DNA of 64,000 nt from a bacterium. Lineage in GTDB: Bacteria; UBA8248. The stretch spans positions 62,001 to 126,000 of the forward strand of contig JAJEJD010000008.1 of assembly GCA_022828125.1 (NCBI GenBank). Direction: 5' to 3'. Made by a program: the position numbers and the translations under genes. The notes under the pieces were generated by a model. That model had not been told where the DNA came from. It ran no database searches and worked only from the letters and a program-made list of their open reading frames with translations. Positions 146 to 60,370 of the stretch are shown piece after piece (position 1 is the first letter of the stretch; each line of letters opens with the position of its first letter).

Positions 146-1495
146 ATGACAATGAAGAAAACGACACTCTTTGCCGTCGCCTTCGGCTTGGCACTCGCCG
201 TCCTGGCGGCGCCCCTCGGCGCGGTCGCGCTCGAGAAGAAGCTCGTCATCGTGACGTCCTATCCGCCGGATACGACGACCACCGTCAAGAAGGCGTTCGA
301 GAAGAAACACCCCGGCGTCAAGGTCGAGATGCTCAAGAAAAAGACCACGGCCGGCATCAAGTATTTACAGGAAACCGCCTCGAACAACCGCTCCGACATG
401 TTCTGGGCATCCGCGCCCGACGCTTTCGAAGTGCTCAAGGGCGACAACCTCCTGCAGAAATACAAGGTGAAGATCAAGGGCATTCCGAAGAAGGTGGGCG
501 CCTTCCCGATCAACGACCCCGAGGGCTACTACAAGGGGTTCGCGGCCTCGGGCTACGGCATCATGTGGAACACCCGCTACTTGAAGGCCAAGAAGCTGCC
601 TGAGCCCAAGACCTGGGCCGATCTGGCCAAACCCGTCTACCACGGCCACGTCGGCATGAGCGCGCCTTCGCGTTCCGGCACCACCCATCTGACGGTGGAG
701 ACCCTCCTGCAGGGCAAAGGCTGGGAGAAGGGCTGGGCCGAGTGGAAGGCCATCGCAGGTAACTTCAAGACCGTCACCGAGCGCAGCTTCGGCGTGCCCG
801 ACGGCGTGAACTCGGGCCAGTTCGGCTTAGGCATCGTGATCGACTTCTTCGGGCTCTCGTCCGAGGCTTCGGGCTTCCCGGTGAAGTTCATCTACCCGCC
901 GGTGACGACGCTGGTGCCCGCGAACATCGCCATCGTCAAGAACGCGCCGCATCCCAAGGCCGCGGCGGCGTTCATCGAGTTCCTGCTCTCGCCCGGGGGC
1001 CAGGAGGTGCTGCTCGACAAGAAAATCAGGCGCCTGCCCGTGAACCCGGCGACCTACGCCAAAGCGCCCGCTGACTTCCCGAACCCGTTCAAGGACAAGT
1101 CCATCGGCGCCGCGGTCAAGTTCGACCTGCAGCTCTCCAAGAACCGCTACAACGTCATCAACTCGCTCTTCGACGTCATGGTCACCTACCGCTTGAGCGA
1201 CCTGCGCGCGGCGACCAAGGCCATCCAGGCCGCCGAGGCCCAGATGAGCGGCAAGAAGAACATGGCGGCCAGCAAGCTGATCGATGAGGCGAAGGCGCTC
1301 GTTGCCAAGGTGCCCATCACCGCGGCACAGGCGAGCAAGAAGGAATTCAACGCGATCTTCAAGAAGAAGCGCAAGAAGGCGACCACGAAAGTGACGGGCC
1401 GCCAGGCGGAGATCGAACGCGAGTGGGACGCGCAGGTCAAGGCCAACTACGCCAAGGCCAGGGCGCTGGCCGAGAAGGCGGCGTCCATGCTGTAG
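146..1495 (+). CDS. ABC transporter substrate-binding protein (iron/phosphonate type) with Lys-rich C-terminal extension
   Basis: Periplasmic solute-binding protein of family 1 (Fe(III)/2-aminoethylphosphonate-like), the binding component of the importer encoded just downstream. The ATG follows GGAGGA at 133-138. Residues 1-28 form a signal peptide (MKK, hydrophobic core, A-x-A before LEKK). The mature protein opens with the family-typical strand VIVTSYPPD; motifs FPINDPEGYY and the Pro-rich VTTLVPANIAI also fit. At 449 residues it is about 100 longer than usual. The extra part, from about residue 350, is helical, rich in Ala and Lys, and includes KKKRKK. The permease follows after about 30 bp. 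The ligand cannot be read from sequence; ferric iron, phosphonate or an organic acid are all possible. Confidence 0.85.
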   Translation: MTMKKTTLFAVAFGLALAVLAAPLGAVALEKKLVIVTSYPPDTTTTVKKAFEKKHPGVKVEMLKKKTTAGIKYLQETASNNRSDMFWASAPDAFEVLKGDNLLQKYKVKIKGIPKKVGAFPINDPEGYYKGFAASGYGIMWNTRYLKAKKLPEPKTWADLAKPVYHGHVGMSAPSRSGTTHLTVETLLQGKGWEKGWAEWKAIAGNFKTVTERSFGVPDGVNSGQFGLGIVIDFFGLSSEASGFPVKFIYPPVTTLVPANIAIVKNAPHPKAAAAFIEFLLSPGGQEVLLDKKIRRLPVNPATYAKAPADFPNPFKDKSIGAAVKFDLQLSKNRYNVINSLFDVMVTYRLSDLRAATKAIQAAEAQMSGKKNMAASKLIDEAKALVAKVPITAAQASKKEFNAIFKKKRKKATTKVTGRQAEIEREWDAQVKANYAKARALAEKAASML

Positions 1496-1525
1496 CCCTC
1501 GCGCTTGCGCGGAGAAGGGGGAAGA

Positions 1526-3241
1526 ATGTCTCTGGAAGCGATGGCGCGCGGCCAGTGGGGGCCGGCGGCGGTGGGCCTCATCGTCGGCCTGTTCCTGCTC
1601 GCCTTCCTGGTCGTGCCCGTCGTGAACGTGATCTACGTCGCCTTCCAGGACCCGAATACGGGCGCGCTGACGCTCATCAACTTCGTCGACTTCTTCCGCA
1701 ACAGCCTGTTCCAGGAATCCGCCATCAATTCGATCTACGTCGCATTGATGGCGGTGGTGCTGGCGTCGATTTTTGCGCTCCCGCTCTCCTATTTCACGAC
1801 GCGCTTCCATTTCGGCGGTGCCATCCTCATCCAGACGCTGGGCGTGCTCCCGCTCATCATGCCGCCCTTCGTCGGCGCGGTGGCCATGCTGCTGCTGCTC
1901 GGGGAGAACGGCTCGGTCAACCTGCTGCTCGATGAGTGGTTCGGCTTCACGATTCCCTTCATGGAAGGGCTGAACGGCGTCATCCTGGTCGAGAGCATCC
2001 ACTATTTCCCGTTCATCCTCATGAACCTCTCGGCCTCGCTCAACAGCATCGACCGGTCGATGGAGGAATCCGCCCAGAACCTGGGCGCGAGCGGGGTGCG
2101 CCTGTTCCGGCGCATCGTGTTCCCGCTGGCGATGCCGGGCTACGTCGCGGGCGCATCGCTGGTGTTCCTGAAGGTCTTTGACGACATCGGCACGCCGCTC
2201 CTGCTCAACATCAACAACATGCTGGCGCCCCAGGCCTACCTGCGAATCGCTTCCATCGGCATCTCGGACCCGATGGGCTACGTGATCTCGGTCATCCTCG
2301 TCATTTTCTCCCTGCTTGCGCTGTGGATCTCGTTCCTGGCGCTTCGGGGCAAGGACTACGCCACCGTCCAAAAGGGCGGCGGCGGGCTGATGAAGCGCGA
2401 CTTGAGACCCTGGGAGAAGGCCGGCTGCTACGGGGTCGTTATCTTCATCCTGCTGCTGGTGCTCTCGCCGCACTTCGGCCTCGCCATTCTCTCGCTCGGC
2501 ACGGTCTGGTCATTCAGCGTGCTGCCAGACGCCTACACGTTCTCGCACTATATGCGCGTGGTCTCCGAATCCTCGGAGTTCATCACGAACACGCTGCTCT
2601 ACGCCGGCCTCGCCGCGGGCATCGACGTGCTGTTCGGCACGGCCATCGCCTACATCGTGCTGCGCACGAACCTGATCGGCCGGAAATGGCTGGACTACGC
2701 TGCGATGGGAGCGGTGGCGATACCCGGCGTGGTGCTCGGCATCGGCTACCTGCGCACCTTCTACGCGTTCAACGTGCCGATCATCGACAAGCCGCTGGCG
2801 TCGTGGTGGGTCATCATCGTCGTCGCCCTCGCCATCAGGCGCCTGCCCTACGCGCTGCGCGCCTGCGTCGCGGCGCTGCAGCAGTTGAGCGTCATGCTCG
2901 AAGAGGCCGCCGAGAACCTGGGGGCGACCAAGGGCCGCACCATCTACCGGGTCGTCGTGCCGCTGATGTCGGGCGGCATCGTGGCCGGTTTCGTCACCAG
3001 CTTCGCCACCGCGGCGGTCGAGCTTTCGACGACCATCATGCTCGTCTCGCAGGAATCGGACGCGCCCCTCGCCTTCGGCATTTACGAGTTCATGCAGTCG
3101 GCGGCTGGGCGCGGCCCGGGCGCCGCACTCGGCATCATCGCCGTGCTCATCGTCGGAATCGCGACCTACGTCTCGCACCGCATCATCCAGCGCAAGGAAA
3201 CGCAGCAAACGCCGGACATGGCCATCGTAGCGGGGGTATGA
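1526..3241 (+). CDS. ABC transporter permease, fused two-module type (Fe(III)/thiamine-importer class)
   Basis: Inner-membrane permease of 571 residues with two tandem BPD_transp_1 modules and about 12 membrane helices, as in SfuB/FbpB/ThiP proteins. Each half has an EAA loop: EESAQNLGASGVRLFRRIVF near residue 190 and EEAAENLGATKGRTIYRVVV near residue 460, the sites where the ATPase docks. I chose ATG 1526 over the in-frame ATG at 1505 because GGAGAAGGGGGAAG precedes it and the upstream residues are charged. The stop at 3239-3241 overlaps the ATPase start (GTATGA), implying translational coupling. Confidence 0.88.
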   Translation: MSLEAMARGQWGPAAVGLIVGLFLLAFLVVPVVNVIYVAFQDPNTGALTLINFVDFFRNSLFQESAINSIYVALMAVVLASIFALPLSYFTTRFHFGGAILIQTLGVLPLIMPPFVGAVAMLLLLGENGSVNLLLDEWFGFTIPFMEGLNGVILVESIHYFPFILMNLSASLNSIDRSMEESAQNLGASGVRLFRRIVFPLAMPGYVAGASLVFLKVFDDIGTPLLLNINNMLAPQAYLRIASIGISDPMGYVISVILVIFSLLALWISFLALRGKDYATVQKGGGGLMKRDLRPWEKAGCYGVVIFILLLVLSPHFGLAILSLGTVWSFSVLPDAYTFSHYMRVVSESSEFITNTLLYAGLAAGIDVLFGTAIAYIVLRTNLIGRKWLDYAAMGAVAIPGVVLGIGYLRTFYAFNVPIIDKPLASWWVIIVVALAIRRLPYALRACVAALQQLSVMLEEAAENLGATKGRTIYRVVVPLMSGGIVAGFVTSFATAAVELSTTIMLVSQESDAPLAFGIYEFMQSAAGRGPGAALGIIAVLIVGIATYVSHRIIQRKETQQTPDMAIVAGV

Positions 3242-4326
3242 GCATGGCATCGCAAAACGCCGCCAGCGTCGTCATCGAGCAGTTGAGCCTCGCCTACGAC
3301 ACGACCGACGTGCTGAAAGACGTGAACCTGCGAATCGAACCGGGCGAGTTGTTCACCTTCCTCGGCCCCTCGGGCTCGGGCAAATCGACCCTGCTGCGCG
3401 CGGTCGCGGGCTTCGGCCCGACGCCCCGCGGTCGCATCCTCATCGGCGAGGACGACGTGACGCGGCTGCCGCCCTGGCGGCGCAACGTCGGCATGGTGTT
3501 CCAGTCCTACGCGCTCTGGCCGCACATGACGGTGCGCAGAAACGTCGCCTTCGGCCTCGAGGAGCGCAGGACGCCCTCTGCCGAGATACCGAAGCGCGTC
3601 GATGCGGCGCTGGACATGGTCGGCCTTCTGGAACTTAGCGAAAGGCGACCGTCTCAGCTGTCCGGCGGTCAGCAGCAGCGCGTCGCCCTCGCCCGCACCA
3701 TCGTCGTCGAGCCCCGCGTGCTGCTGCTCGATGAGCCGCTCTCGAACCTCGACGCCAACCTGCGCGTACAGATGCGCCGCGAGATTCTGGATTTACAGCG
3801 CGAACTCGCGCTCACCACCATCTTCGTCATCCACGACCAGGAAGAGGCCAACACCATCTCGGACAGGATAGCCGTGCTCGACGAAGGCGTCCTCCAGCAG
3901 GTGGGAATGCCCATGGAACTCTACGACGAACCGGTCAACCGCTTCGTCGCCCACTTCCTGGGCACGGCGAACCTCATGGAAGGGCGCGTCGAGACGGGGG
4001 ATGACGGCGCGCGTTTCGCCGCGGCGAACGGCATCGTCCTGCCGCTGGCGGGAGAGTCCCACCCGGCGGGCGGGGAGCGGACCGCCGTGTTCCGGCCCCA
4101 GGACGTCGCCATCGCGGCATCCGGCGAGACAGTGCCCGGAATCGTCCTGACCGGCCGGGTGCAGCACCGTGAATTTCTCGGCAACCTCCTGCGCTACTCC
4201 GTCGCCATCGGCGAGGACATCCTGCTGGTCGACGACACCCACCACCCGGGCCGCCGCGCCTTCGCCGTGGGCGATGAGGTCGTGGTAGGCCTCCGCGGCG
4301 AGCAGGTGCGCATCCTGGAGCCTTGA
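3238..4326 (+). CDS. ABC transporter ATP-binding protein (MalK/PotA-like, with TOBE domain)
   Basis: Cytoplasmic ATPase energising the importer. All nucleotide-binding motifs are intact: Walker A GPSGSGKS (residues 43-50), Q-loop FQSYALWPHM, signature LSGGQQQR, Walker B VLLLDEP, D-loop SNLDA and the H-switch in VIHDQEEA. A TOBE-type C-terminal domain (about residues 245-362) begins after the FLGTANLMEG segment and includes FRPQDVAI, typical of the Fe/spermidine/sugar subfamily. The start ATG at 3238 overlaps the permease stop; ATG 3244 is an alternative. The protein is 362 residues, normal for the family. Confidence 0.92.
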   Translation: MSMASQNAASVVIEQLSLAYDTTDVLKDVNLRIEPGELFTFLGPSGSGKSTLLRAVAGFGPTPRGRILIGEDDVTRLPPWRRNVGMVFQSYALWPHMTVRRNVAFGLEERRTPSAEIPKRVDAALDMVGLLELSERRPSQLSGGQQQRVALARTIVVEPRVLLLDEPLSNLDANLRVQMRREILDLQRELALTTIFVIHDQEEANTISDRIAVLDEGVLQQVGMPMELYDEPVNRFVAHFLGTANLMEGRVETGDDGARFAAANGIVLPLAGESHPAGGERTAVFRPQDVAIAASGETVPGIVLTGRVQHREFLGNLLRYSVAIGEDILLVDDTHHPGRRAFAVGDEVVVGLRGEQVRILEP

Positions 4327-4349
4327 GAGAGCGAGCCGCCGCGCATCAG

Positions 4350-4540
4350 GGGAAAAGCAACCCCCTTGAAAGGGAAATCCCATAAAACCAACCCCCCCTA
4401 CCCCCCCTTGTCAGGGGGGCAAGAAAAAGCAAAACCCCCTCAGCCCGGCGAGGGCGCATCGCCTTTTTATACCCCCCTGACAAGGGGGGGTAGGGGGGGT
4501 TGCTTTTGTCCTCTGACAAGGGGGACTTTTTCAACAACCA
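4350..4540. repeat. Type A palindromic repeat, copy 1
   Basis: Non-coding element between two plus-strand genes. Two long GC-rich arms (about 4388-4420 and 4470-4502) each contain ACCCCCCCTACCCCCCCTTG or its complement and are inverted to each other, so the transcript would fold into a large hairpin. A terminal motif GGACTTTTTCAACAACC lies at 4523-4539. The same architecture recurs at about 18.9, 24.5, 38.6, 39.9 and 49.2 kb. Reading frames through it give proline/glycine peptides that are not real proteins. Confidence 0.85.
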
Positions 4541-4666
4541 CCCCTTGAAACGACCATCTGAAAGCCCGCGAGAGCGTGAACCCCCGGCGGGCTTGCCATT
4601 CCCGCGCCGATGGTGGATTCTCCCCCGAAATCTGAAACGGCCTCATCGAATCTGGAGTCAGAACGA

Positions 4667-55118: not shown

Positions 55119-56045
55119 TCATGCCGGAATCCGGCGGCCCTTCCATGACGCCACGGATTCCAGGACGCAAACGACACCGGCCAGAGAATCCCAGCCCGAG
55201 CTATGTCCTATCTTGTCCAACTCACGCAAAGCGGAACGCAAGCGCGCCTCATCCGCTATCCCCAGCGCCGAAATCGTCTCATGCAGGGCTTCAGCTCCCT
55301 GCCCTCCGGCCGCGCACTCCATATGCGCGCGACTGATTTTATTCGTCCGCTCTCTGGCCTGTTTCAAGACGCTGCCGGAAACTTTTTCCAAAATGTCCAT
55401 AAAGCCCAGCGCGCGCAACGCTATCATCACACCGCACCAGAAATCATCCCCCGACGGCGTGAGTCCCGGCCCAAGGCCAACGAGCCTGCGGGCAATGGCA
55501 GGAAATTCAAGGTTTTCCGCTTGATCCAGAGAGTGCGACAACCAAAGCCGGAAGCTCGATATTCCCTTCCAGGAGACTGCTTGAAATGCGTCCTCGTACG
55601 AGATTTCCTCGCCGCTCACAACCTGCGCGATGAGCGGGGCCAGACCCTCCCGAGGCCCCGTTTCGGCTATCCATTGAACGAGAACCGGGAGATTTTCCAG
55701 AAAAAACTCCAAATTCCACCCGACCGGGAACGGCTCAGGCTCCCACGCCACCGGACGGGAGATATCGATTTTCATCCGGGAGCCAAGTTGCATCCAGCCA
55801 TCCCGGATTTTGGCGGGGCTTCCCGGTTCTACGATTTGCGTGAAATCCACGTCGCCCGAGAATTCACAAAGCGCATTCAAGGGTCCCGGCCCGATACCCC
55901 GATCTCCAATACACGCGATCCGCCCGAGTGTATTTTCTACATATAAACTTCGGCGAAACACACCGATGATTTTTGCTTTATCCGGTGCGTCGAGGAAATC
56001 CCTTGCGAATGCGCCCACAAGATCAACTTTGGAGACAGCCTGCAT
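55119..56045 (-). CDS. DUF2877 domain-containing protein
   Basis: 308 residues. The diagnostic LVGLGPGLTPSGDDFWCGVM lies near residue 190, with ISRAHMECAAGG and GHSSGWDSLAGVV after it. Family genes are commonly found beside purine/allantoin and carbamoyl-transfer genes, but no biochemical role is secure. It lies 19 bp upstream of the ketopantoate-reductase-like gene in the same orientation, so both are probably one operon. Confidence 0.8.
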   Translation of the reverse strand: MQAVSKVDLVGAFARDFLDAPDKAKIIGVFRRSLYVENTLGRIACIGDRGIGPGPLNALCEFSGDVDFTQIVEPGSPAKIRDGWMQLGSRMKIDISRPVAWEPEPFPVGWNLEFFLENLPVLVQWIAETGPREGLAPLIAQVVSGEEISYEDAFQAVSWKGISSFRLWLSHSLDQAENLEFPAIARRLVGLGPGLTPSGDDFWCGVMIALRALGFMDILEKVSGSVLKQARERTNKISRAHMECAAGGQGAEALHETISALGIADEARLRSALRELDKIGHSSGWDSLAGVVCVLESVASWKGRRIPA

Positions 56046-56138: not shown

Positions 56139-56474
56139 TTATCCGCAGCCAGGACCTCTGACCTCACTCGCCGCAACTCCAGATGGAACGAGCGTCTCGG
56201 CAAAATTCGGGTCCATTTCCTGCTTTTCAATCAGTTCAGCTATTTGTGAGAGCAGCATCTCGCGTTTCATCAGTCCCAGACGATATATGCCCATCGGGTT
56301 TACAAGCTTCATATAGTAATGGTTTGCAGCGTCATGCTCGGTCGAGCACGCAGAAGGTTTTTGAGCGATGGAAAGAGGTTTTCCAAAAACATCTGCAAAT
56401 CGGGACAGGATTTCCTCATGATGTAAATCCACCGGTATTTCGGGAAATCTGACTAAGAGTTCCTGGATAGTCAT
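56139..56474 (-). CDS. Small protein of unknown function ending in GPGCG
   Basis: 111 residues, starting MTIQELLVRFPEIPVDLH at ATG 56474 (AAGGAG 8 nt upstream; a GTG at 56480 is too close to it). Mixed charged/hydrophobic helices (HHEEILSRFADVFG, LGLMKREMLLSQIAELIEKQ) and a central HDAANHYYMKLVNPMGIYR. The tail SEVRGPGCG puts a Cys next to the last residue, a layout seen in peptides modified or cleaved at the C terminus, though one Cys also occurs centrally. A terminator follows. No family recognised. It is probably in the operon with the 657-residue protein, 134 bp away. Confidence 0.6.
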   Translation of the reverse strand: MTIQELLVRFPEIPVDLHHEEILSRFADVFGKPLSIAQKPSACSTEHDAANHYYMKLVNPMGIYRLGLMKREMLLSQIAELIEKQEMDPNFAETLVPSGVAASEVRGPGCG

Positions 56475-56607
56475 CGTCACAACTCCTTTATCAGTTGATC
56501 ATTCAAACGTAACAACTCACTCATTCTAGCAGATATCGAATAGCCCGGCTCCCTGCATTCTCATGCTGCGACACAAAAACGAGCAAATCCCAGGAAAACC
56601 GCAAGGA

Positions 56608-58581
56608 TTACTTTTCCCGGATAAAGCGCGCAGCATAGCTTCTGATATTTTTCCCGTTCAGAACATGAAAGCGACGGATTCGGGCGATTGTTTCTCCAGA
56701 AAACCGGCCAATCGGAATGTGAATCAAATGCTTCTTATACAACCGCGCAATCTGCCGCCAGCGTGTATTTGGAGGGTGCGGACTCACCAGGGCGATGAAG
56801 CGCTCTTGCGAGTGAAAACACGCCCCCGCAATCAGTCGCTCCTCCAATGTCTTTGTGTAGTGAAAGCGCGAATCCCGCCAGACATCCTCGATATGCCGGG
56901 GAGGAAAAACAAAGAACGCCCCGCCATATTGCGATTCCGCGATGCCGGGACCAACCAGATTGTTCTCGAACGGGGTCGCATACATGCAAAGAGTTGATTC
57001 TTCATCATGTTCCGCATACCACATCGTACGCCAGGAATACTTCTCTAGAGCCGCCGGTGTATCGAACAAAAAGACGACGACCTCCAGGTTCCCTCGCGCA
57101 GGGGGAATTTCTTTTACATAGAGTTCGCCCGTATGCCAGTTGCGAAGCGTTTCCCTGATATCGAGGCCATCTTTTATCGACGTCGTGAATTTCTCGGTGC
57201 GCGCCAAATCCTCTCCCAACAGCGCCTTGGCCTGCTCGCGCACGTGGGTATGAAAACTCTCTATGGCGTCATCTTCCGGTGGCCAGGAACACATGCCGAA
57301 AGGATTCCACCTCTGGGCCCATTTCTGCTTTTCAAACGGCGTGGGCTTCGGTTTGAGAGAAATACTCCTCCAGGTGACGGCTGATCCGCCCAGGCGGCTC
57401 TTGAGCGTCCCGACGTCTCCATTCGGGAATACCGCACGATCCACGCCAACGTGGACAAAATCGTCTTCATAGAATTCCGGGGCTTCACGCTGATAGGGGT
57501 ATTCTCGCGCGACTTCCAATATCGCCAAGGCGAAAGCATCGCCCGCGGTCTGCTTGGCGGCGAGGACGAGGGTGAATAAATCCGGCGTCAGCCTCCTTCC
57601 CTGAAGCGTCAGATTGCGGACATATTGCAAGAATATCTGGAGTCTTTGAGGCGTCACCCAATTCTGCGCCGGTCGATGTTCTCTCAACCACGACGCTCTC
57701 GCCTCCAGAAGCAGTTCCTTGATGCCGTCGATGGAAAGGTTGGAGTCCCCCAGGAACTCTTCGCGGTTTCTTGCGTACAAATACGTCTGATAGGGAAACT
57801 CCCCCAAGAGGAAAGCCAGGGTATCTTCCGATACTCCATGCCTTCGGGGCGGATTGAGCGACGCGCCCAGGTGGAACTCGAATAATTCATCCCCGCCGGA
57901 TGGCCCTTCCCGGCAGGCCGAGCGAATCCAAGGCCAATCCAACGCGGAACATACCAGGACGATGCGCTTGTATCGCGCTTCGAGCTCGAGCAAGGCGTTG
58001 GCCATCCAGCGGATTCTCGCGGCGCGCTGCGAGGAAGCCGTGGGCTTTGGAGCCGCCGTCAAAAGAGTGGCTGCAAAAGCCTCCATCGGCACTTTTTTCA
58101 GCGCATACGGATCCGGCAGCGTATGAACATCCTGCTGAAAACGCTCTACCTCCATATCAATGAAGACTCTGGGAATACGCTCCCCCATCGCTACCCTGAG
58201 GGCGGAAATCACGGGTTGGCAAGGGTCGATGGGGACATAATTATAGGAAGACAAATTCGTTTCATCCGCCGCCAAGTCTTCTTCAGCACCGAAATCATCT
58301 TCCGGCTGTGAGGGCTGCTCCCATGGCTCATCAAACACTGTTTCATCATCCCCGAAGTATGATGGGGCATCTTCATTTACCGACACCATGGAGACGTAGG
58401 GGAGTTCATCCACACCCGCTTCCACTTCATCCTGAAAAGACGGCGGCAGAGGAATCGCAACGCAATCAGGCTCAAGCCGCAAAATCCTGTCGCGCACTTC
58501 GACGGCAAAGTCTCCCGACCCGTGGATGACAGGAAGTACGCTGATCCGCTCGGTGATGTTCAGGAAATCTCGTGAGGCCAT
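56608..58581 (-). CDS. Large ChaN/TraB-like (DUF5682-like) protein associated with a MoxR ATPase
   Basis: 657 residues. N terminus ISVLPVIHGSGDFAVEVRDRILRLEPDCVAIPLPP resembles the opening of TraB/ChaN/DUF5682 proteins (His after a first strand, then Glu/Asp after 'LxPD'). An acidic linker (about 70-110) follows, then FIDMEVERF, RIRWMANALLELEARYKRIVLVCSALDWPW, as in the second half of that fold. Residues from about 300 match nothing I know; they include Trp/Tyr-rich segments. It starts 3 bp after the AAA ATPase stop, so the two work together. In known MoxR islands a DUF5682 protein and a VWA protein are partners; no VWA gene is present here. Confidence 0.6.
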   Translation of the reverse strand: MASRDFLNITERISVLPVIHGSGDFAVEVRDRILRLEPDCVAIPLPPSFQDEVEAGVDELPYVSMVSVNEDAPSYFGDDETVFDEPWEQPSQPEDDFGAEEDLAADETNLSSYNYVPIDPCQPVISALRVAMGERIPRVFIDMEVERFQQDVHTLPDPYALKKVPMEAFAATLLTAAPKPTASSQRAARIRWMANALLELEARYKRIVLVCSALDWPWIRSACREGPSGGDELFEFHLGASLNPPRRHGVSEDTLAFLLGEFPYQTYLYARNREEFLGDSNLSIDGIKELLLEARASWLREHRPAQNWVTPQRLQIFLQYVRNLTLQGRRLTPDLFTLVLAAKQTAGDAFALAILEVAREYPYQREAPEFYEDDFVHVGVDRAVFPNGDVGTLKSRLGGSAVTWRSISLKPKPTPFEKQKWAQRWNPFGMCSWPPEDDAIESFHTHVREQAKALLGEDLARTEKFTTSIKDGLDIRETLRNWHTGELYVKEIPPARGNLEVVVFLFDTPAALEKYSWRTMWYAEHDEESTLCMYATPFENNLVGPGIAESQYGGAFFVFPPRHIEDVWRDSRFHYTKTLEERLIAGACFHSQERFIALVSPHPPNTRWRQIARLYKKHLIHIPIGRFSGETIARIRRFHVLNGKNIRSYAARFIREK

Positions 58582-58584
58582 GAA

Positions 58585-59553
58585 TCAATCGTCTCGGCCA
58601 GGGTGCAACGGGCTGTCGCCCCCAAAGAAAAGATCGCCGAAATCAAGCGGCGGGGGTTCGTCACCGAGGGCTTGCCGTCTTCTTTGCGCAAGGCTTTTCA
58701 GGTCCAATGCCTCATCTCCCAAAACCTTGGCGAGCGCCTCTCGCCACGCTTCGTCTCGGGAGAGTGGATGCTCCGGGTCCTGCGCAAGACGCTTCAGTGC
58801 GAATTGAAGAATGTGGATTCCGTCTCTTGGGGAATACTCCAGGTCCAGTTCGTGGGCTTCCTGCAAAAACTCCACCGTCAAAGCCAACATCTCTTCGGGC
58901 GCAAACGGCAAATGATACTTCAGGATGGTCATTTCATCTTTTTTGTTCGGGAATTCAAGCGCCAGAGTGGGTTGGAGTCTCGACAAAATGTAGTCGGGCA
59001 CCTCGTATGTCGAGGCGTCTTCATTCATCGTTACGCAGCAGCGAAAATCCGGATGCGCCTTTACCGTGACGCCGGCCACGATAGACTCCACATAACGGCG
59101 GTGATCGAGCAACGGAGCCAGCGACGCCCAACTCTTCTCGCTCATCCGGTTGCCCTCATCGAGCACACAGACGCCTCCGCGTATCATGGCCGTAACCAGA
59201 GGGGATGCGTGATAGGCGATTTTTCCCGACTCCGCCAAAACGGGCGTGATCAAGAGGTCTTCCGGGCGGGTATCGGAGGTGCACTGAAATATGAACAATT
59301 CCTGGTTTCTCTCCCGCGCCGCCGCCATCGCCAGCGTCGTCTTCCCGATACCGGGGGGGCCGACGATTCTTGGAGAAAGAGAAACGTCCTCCTCCGCCAC
59401 GAGCATCCAGCAGGCCAGAAGCTGACGCAGCACCTCCGCCTGACCGATCCACGCTTGGTCGGAATCGGTGCGTCCGCTCAGCTGCAGGGACACCCCTTCG
59501 ATTTCAACTGTTCTTACCCCCGTTTGTTCCTTGCCTGATGTTTTATCGTGCAA
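58585..59553 (-). CDS. MoxR-like AAA+ ATPase
   Basis: About 322 residues. Walker [10 protein letters not shown] (about 68), Walker [11 protein letters not shown] (about 132), sensor 1 CCVTMNED (about 173) and Arg-finger/sensor-2 region [11 protein letters not shown] mark an AAA_5/MoxR-NorQ type chaperone ATPase. No ATG fits; TTG 59553 has AAGGAG with 6-nt spacing, better than TTG 59559. The C-terminal helix bundle ends in an acidic tail ([15 protein letters not shown]). It is directly coupled to the 657-residue gene. Known relatives insert metals or remodel partner VWA proteins. Confidence 0.85.
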
Positions 59554-59623
59554 AATCAACTCCTTATTCCAAAATTCGCATCAAACGGTTTTGGTATCCC
59601 ATCCGTGCATCCGGAGCATGCTA

Positions 59624-60370
59624 CTAATCCGTAAAATACCCCCCGTTTACATCCAGGGCTTCTCCGGTGATATGCGCAGCTTCCTCGCTTGCAAGAAACA
59701 ATGTGGGCGGCACCAATTCCGCAGCAATCGCAAATTTTCCCATCGGATGTTTCGCCAGCGCCCTGTTATACAATTCCGGTCCGAACTCTCGCATCAATGG
59801 CCCGTCAATCGGCCCGGGAACCAGGCAGTTCACGGTCACTCTGGTTTTCGCAAGCTCTCGGGCAAGGTTGAACGTCATGGCCAAGACACCGCCTTTTGAA
59901 GCCCCATACGTGAGATTATGGCCCAGTCCCCCCGATTTTCCGGCCCCGGAGCCAAACAGGATAATCCGCCCCGCCGGAGACTTCATGAGCGCGGGCATCG
60001 CGCCTTGAATACAGAAATAAGGCGCCAGGAGATTCACGTTCAGGGCGCGCCTCCAATCGGATTCAACAAGCGAGAGCGGGTCTTTCACCAGCATGTTCGC
60101 CGTCGTGTAAACCAGGACGTCGCATCCACCCAGCCATGCGATAGCTTCCCGGATCATGGATTTCACATCCGTGAAATTTTCGAAGTCACAGGGAATTTTT
60201 TTCAGCATCTCCTCGGAACCTTCGATGAGACGCAGTTTCTCTGGACTTCGCCCCGTGGCGACGAGTTTGGCGCCCGAATCCAGAAATCCCTGAACGAGCG
60301 CCTTGCCCACGTCTCCCGTGGCGCCGGTCAGGAGCACTTTCTTGCCCTGAAAATTAAAGCGAAGCGTCAT
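59624..60370 (-). CDS. Short-chain dehydrogenase/reductase, canonical type
   Basis: 248 residues. TGATGDVGKALVQGF cofactor motif, DVLVYTTANM in place of NNAG, catalytic Ser in LFGSGAGKSGG and Tyr/Lys in LTYGASKGGVLAM, and C-terminal GEALDVNGGYF. The triad is complete, unlike in the SDR at 38.9 kb. ATG 60370 was chosen by fold; the frame above it has no similarity. It is 70 bp upstream of the MoxR gene in the same direction and could head that operon. Confidence 0.86.
   Translation of the reverse strand: MTLRFNFQGKKVLLTGATGDVGKALVQGFLDSGAKLVATGRSPEKLRLIEGSEEMLKKIPCDFENFTDVKSMIREAIAWLGGCDVLVYTTANMLVKDPLSLVESDWRRALNVNLLAPYFCIQGAMPALMKSPAGRIILFGSGAGKSGGLGHNLTYGASKGGVLAMTFNLARELAKTRVTVNCLVPGPIDGPLMREFGPELYNRALAKHPMGKFAIAAELVPPTLFLASEEAAHITGEALDVNGGYFTD

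Follow-up and report, generated by a model that had tools for sequence, protein, structure and literature searches.

A MoxR-type ATPase gene and a gene for a large DUF5682-related protein recur together in diverse bacteria and may encode a remodelling machine without a VWA partner

Two neighbouring genes on the minus strand of the window (the whole stretch of DNA analysed, 64,000 nucleotides in length) encode a MoxR-type AAA+ ATPase (P0002) and a 657-aa protein (P0001). MoxR ATPases are thought to act via VWA-domain co-chaperones. We consider it somewhat probable that the two genes encode a single MoxR-type remodelling machine in which the 657-aa protein takes the place of the VWA co-chaperone. 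The combination of a MoxR ATPase with a dedicated partner is already known; what is new is the architecture of the partner and the absence of a VWA protein. The initial annotation of this DNA had proposed the AAA+ gene and the large gene as a possible undescribed system, and this proposal gains weight from their strict co-occurrence across distantly related bacteria.

Gene organization

The region contains four ORFs, all of which are on the minus strand at the positions initially assigned to them. In order of transcription, these encode an SDR (about 60370 to 59624), the ATPase (58585-59559; about 322-324 aa; Pfam AAA_5, 4.3e-21), the large partner protein (56608-58581) and the small protein P0003 (56139-56474/56480; 111-113 codons). 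Initiation at the ATG at 56474 would produce a P0003 protein of 111 aa, while initiation at the GTG at 56480 would produce one of 113 aa. The SDR start at approximately 60370 agrees with a 248-aa relative in L025. The spacing of 3 bp between the ATPase gene and the large gene was confirmed: the TGA stop codon of the former is followed by TTC and then by the ATG of the latter at 58581. P0003 ends in RGPGCG and, as first described, this protein with a penultimate cysteine is encoded ahead of a terminator: a terminator-like hairpin (10 pairs with a T-rich tail, 56119-56094) separates its gene from an AllH/DUF2877 gene (55119-56045, minus strand) located 3' of the hairpin. Genes for an ApbA/PanE-type reductase and then an M29 peptidase, also on the minus strand, come after AllH in the order of transcription.

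When the genes of the pair were compared with those of L024, divergence was found mainly at third codon positions, indicating that both are coding. The dN/dS ratios in this comparison were about 0.14 for the large gene and about 0.07 for the ATPase gene, and both genes are under strong purifying selection.

The SDR and P0003 genes had also been suggested to belong to the unit, a suggestion that the relatives contradict: in these, the two genes are retained where the pair is missing or lie at a distance of several genes from it. In G009, genes for an SDR, a CMD protein, P0003 and ApbA lie side by side without the ATPase pair. One to three genes lie between P0003 and the pair in other genera, and an SDR gene ahead of the pair is limited to the window's own genus. 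Based on this synteny, both genes were left out of the module. P0003 has no family match above cut-off. Its C-terminus consists of RGPGC and one variable residue in 10/10 aligned sequences within the family, with the penultimate cysteine invariant. In other genera, the P0003 gene is found near an amino-acid-kinase (carbamate-kinase-like) gene, AllH and ApbA, and neighbours of this type (SDR, CMD, carbamate-kinase-like, AllH and ApbA) raise the possibility that P0003 may take part in an oxamate/carbamoyl-type pathway. The carbamate-kinase-like gene adjoins AllH in relatives, and two AllG genes are present on other contigs of the window genome.

Co-occurrence of the ATPase and the large protein

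A sample of 386 genomes across the domain was searched, with an E-value cut-off of 1e-30 for the ATPase profile. The large protein was found in 34/386 genomes and the ATPase subfamily in 34/386, with both present in 32. Eighteen of the 34 genomes with the large protein belong outside the window's own family; outside this family, the large protein was found in 18 genomes, the ATPase in 19 and both in 17. The corresponding Fisher p-values (about 5e-42 overall and about 4e-26 outside the family) are indicative only, because the genomes are not independent. The distance matrices of the two proteins are correlated (r = 0.85, Mantel p = 1e-4, uncorrected for shared ancestry).

The two genes are adjacent in 11 of the 18 genomes outside the family, and contig breaks in a further two (G096 and G287) are compatible with adjacency. 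Homologues of the large protein lacking the ATPase had been named at the outset as evidence that would count against the pair. Four genomes (G153, G290, G344 and G365) do lack an adjacent ATPase gene, but the dedicated ATPase is encoded elsewhere in each of them (E-values: 1e-123 to 1e-165, with the next AAA protein at about 39 bits or less). Sequence features of their neighbouring genes would place the G153 and G290 loci in Planctomycetota. The large protein was found without the ATPase in G014 and G376, where both copies are at contig ends. Conversely, G173 (L106, 4697-5677) and G312 (L105, 5174-6112) encode a sister ATPase without a detectable large protein, which indicates that the ATPase may have other partners; a replacement partner may exist in these two genomes.

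Within its own family, the pair is nearly universal and largely syntenic. It is kept in 16/18 of the genomes of the source phylum that were examined, a distribution that points to a constant function in the cell. In distant genomes, the genes flanking the pair vary from one genome to the next, and none is conserved as a third gene.

The ATPase

P0002 has the features expected of a MoxR-type AAA+ protein: an AAA_5-type core with intact Walker A (GPPGIGKT), Walker B (VLDEGNR), sensor 1 (TMN) and arginine finger (SRLQP) motifs. These motifs are kept across the 21 members aligned. The only solved relatives found were midasin, CbbQ and NorQ. In a phylogenetic tree, the dedicated ATPases (including the G173 and G312 copies) form one group with support of 99/97, while YehL and the DUF5682-associated ATPases are found on a separate branch with support of 100/100; the deeper order is unsure due to long branches. 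YehL scores only -1.8 bits against the profile of the dedicated ATPases.

The large protein

The 657-aa protein searched alone had no matches in Pfam, NCBIfam, PADLOC or the PDB. Its family comprises 23 diverse members, the alignment of which includes sequences with as little as 20-30% identity to the window protein and has 7 invariant columns. Two of the related genes have irregularities that may be assembly faults in MAGs: an apparent frameshift divides the G010 gene (L088/L026) in two, and in G017 a stretch of masked bases lies close to the end of the gene (L011).

The initial annotation had noted a likeness of the N-terminal part to DUF5682 and TraB, and profile-profile comparison establishes this as homology. 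The DUF5682/TraB-like region was delimited by hhalign and alignment to residues 12-347 approximately (57541-58548, minus strand), and it contains a variable acidic insert at residues 66-115 or thereabouts. The N-half (residues about 13-346) matched the N-half of DUF5682 proteins, including E. coli YehM, with an hhalign probability of 98.5% (E-value: 2.6e-15), while the N-half alone matched DUF5682 with a probability of 99.4% (E-value: 1.5e-20). Over all comparisons, the probabilities were 98.3-99.4% (E-values: 1e-14 to 1e-20), as opposed to ≤0.1% for 20 column-shuffled controls. The window protein has no match to DUF5682 (PF18934) at the Pfam gathering cut-off (26 bits), and the best of the 23 members has an E-value of 0.007. 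A search of the window genome identified no DUF5682 protein.

The metal-dependent signature of TraB/PrgY/GumN proteins, known from TIKI/TraB work, consists of a histidine in the first motif and a glutamate that ends the next strand. The histidine (H20) is present in 19/22 members of the family. The glutamate (E44) is present in 8/23 and is replaced by proline in the window protein; as it is not kept, a TraB-type active site in the N-half is unlikely.

The C-half is specific to the family (residues about 366-657 of the 56608-58581 gene product, minus strand) and is the best-conserved part of the large protein. Columns that are at least 87% conserved number 32/231 in this half and 13/305 in the N-half, and a conserved C-terminal domain was delimited at residues 415-657 (56611-57339, minus strand). 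Its invariant or near-invariant residues are S432, E436, D437, D471, G472, R476-E477-T478, R480, F506, W521, E524, E528, S529, GPG544-546, YGG552-554, W568, H639 and R647. The C-terminal part had been described as unfamiliar, and it went without a match in every library searched: there was nothing above chance in Pfam, NCBIfam, the PDB or PHROGs, the hhalign probability with the C-half of DUF5682 was 0.0, and hhalign comparisons with VWA_CoxE proteins and with the ATPase gave no match. When the C-half was searched alone in the 386 genomes, only the same full-length proteins and two marginal hits were recovered. AF2 models built from six sequences were too poor to use (pLDDT 46.9 and 41.4). A PDB fold search with the first of these models found nothing below an E-value of 0.04, and weak matches to subunits of Tetrahymena complex IV were not used.

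Two other candidates for the relationships of this protein were rejected. A degenerate VWA domain hidden in the C-half was discarded because hhalign was empty and the DxSxS (MIDAS) motif was missing, this motif being present in none of 21 large proteins. A link to TOMM biosynthesis or peptide maturation was indicated by a match to TIGR03882 (NCBIfam, E-value: 5e-4) in one relative; this match involves an N-terminal stretch, is below the cut-off and was judged to be due to chance. Peptide maturation, one of the functions first suggested for the locus, gained no support.

The conservation of the C-half bears on an alternative in which the large protein is itself an enzyme with an active site in the C-half, while the ATPase is a CbbQ-CbbO-like activator or repair chaperone for which this enzyme is the client. 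The concentration of conserved columns in the C-half is in keeping with such an enzyme, as are the identities of the residues (E, D, R, H and S), which are those typically seen at catalytic or ligand sites. Further points in its favour are that the C-half is always accompanied by the N-half and that there is no conserved third gene. However, neither the fold nor the family of any enzyme was matched, the TraB-type H...E pair is not kept in the N-half, and the conserved residues are equally explicable as structural or client-binding. We regard this alternative as rather unlikely.

Comparison with known MoxR systems

In E. coli, the YehL-YehM-YehP(-YehQ) system is made up of a MoxR ATPase, a DUF5682 protein, a VWA_CoxE protein and a SWIM protein, with yehM flanked by yehL, which encodes the MoxR ATPase, and yehP, which encodes the VWA protein. 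The pair resembles this system in that a MoxR-type ATPase gene directly precedes a gene with a DUF5682/TraB-like first half. It differs in that it has no VWA or SWIM gene and in that the C-half is unrelated by profile. The ATPase also appears from the tree to be of another clade than YehL, and the likeness to YehL-YehM therefore covers one domain only. G145 carries both the new pair (L074) and a MoxR-DUF5682 system (L093), so the two systems are not simply alternatives.

The statement that the usual VWA partner is missing was correct for the locus, as there is no VWA gene in the unit or beside the pair. When VWA genes outside the window were sought, one VWA_CoxE gene was found elsewhere in the window genome (C10). 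This gene, together with the presence of both MoxR and VWA_CoxE genes among the neighbours of DUF5682 genes, might suggest that the pair is an incomplete copy of YehLMP whose third member is a VWA protein encoded elsewhere. In a search limited to the VWA_CoxE family, however, three of the 14 pair-bearing genomes (G022, G309 and G362, which are 97-98% complete) had no match, which argues against an obligatory VWA_CoxE partner in trans. Given this result and the position of the ATPase outside the YehL clade, we believe this explanation to be improbable.

NorQ-NorD and CbbQ-CbbO each consist of a MoxR ATPase and a VWA partner, and they function in metal insertion and Rubisco activation. The pair has the same broad type of ATPase and the same two-gene layout of an ATPase and a large partner. 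In contrast to NorD and CbbO, the partner has no VWA profile match and no DxSxS motif, and in distant genomes the genes next to the pair encode no target enzyme. McrBC, a restriction nuclease, resembles the pair in having a non-VWA partner, and no sequence relation was seen. It has been proposed that the NorQ ring twists its large partner NorD, opening the client for metal insertion, and McrB-McrC provides a precedent for a related AAA+ ring with a partner lacking VWA (PMC13036017). A search of open-access literature found no paper that describes the pair or mentions DUF5682, and YehM appeared only incidentally. A yehM mutation has been reported in copper-evolved E. coli (PMC12409786), but this is too weak to use.

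Occurrence on mobile elements

One further pair was found on plasmid pS13 of Neochlamydia sp. S13, the sole match among plasmids. There were no matches in the phage genome collection. IMG/VR contained two relatives, on contigs L068 and L069, to which further profile scans added none; matches to DNA patterns on L127 and L128 were false. On L068, the pair (1362-4583) directly adjoins an integrase gene, which suggests that it is carried by an integrative element. A tail-like gene is located near the large protein gene on another IMG/VR contig.

MoxR-VWA-VMAP and ternary conflict systems related to it have been described (Kaur et al. 2020, PMC7159879), and these resemble the pair as MoxR-centred multi-gene modules with unusual partners. 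Together with the plasmid copy, the integrase and tail-like neighbours and the patchy spread of the pair across families, this precedent speaks for a reading of the pair as an anti-phage or other conflict system on mobile elements. The known ternary systems have a VWA component and effectors, whereas the pair has neither. PADLOC had no match for either protein and gave only very weak scores for neighbouring genes, and defence, another of the functions initially suggested, gained no support. Furthermore, the near-universal and largely syntenic presence of the pair in its own family, the strong purifying selection and the lack of a variable effector domain all argue against a conflict system. 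Retention in 16 of the 18 phylum genomes and the empty PADLOC search disfavour a role in defence, and we consider it very improbable.

Predicted mode of action and significance

Under the favoured reading of the pair as a MoxR-type remodelling machine, we infer that the two proteins would form a physical complex in which a ring remodels its target and a client is matured. Powered by ATP, the ATPase ring would pull or twist the 657-aa protein, and the latter would fill the slot occupied by the VWA co-chaperone in NorQ-NorD, CbbQ-CbbO and RavA-ViaA. The N-half, being common to YehM, is probably involved in complex formation or client binding, and the C-half, with its many invariant motifs of charged or glycine-rich character, is probably the part that does the work or contacts the client. 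The 657-aa protein would then either act on a client or be itself an enzyme that is kept active. The most likely outcome would be that a housekeeping client, which may be a metal or cofactor enzyme, is matured or reactivated; by analogy with NorQ-NorD, metal-centre assembly is a possible role.

We tentatively suggest that the pair represents an undescribed machine of the MoxR clade that works without VWA, composed of a dedicated ATPase and a partner with a DUF5682-type N-half and a novel C-half, with a new fold or active site, and present in several phyla as well as on an environmental chlamydia plasmid. A related machine that is widespread and has another conserved partner would reveal which parts of the MoxR mechanism are essential. 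The pair would also provide an entry point for studying the TraB-like half that it has in common with the unexplained YehM/DUF5682 proteins. In addition, the large protein contributes a domain of about 240 residues that lacks annotation and has striking invariant residues.
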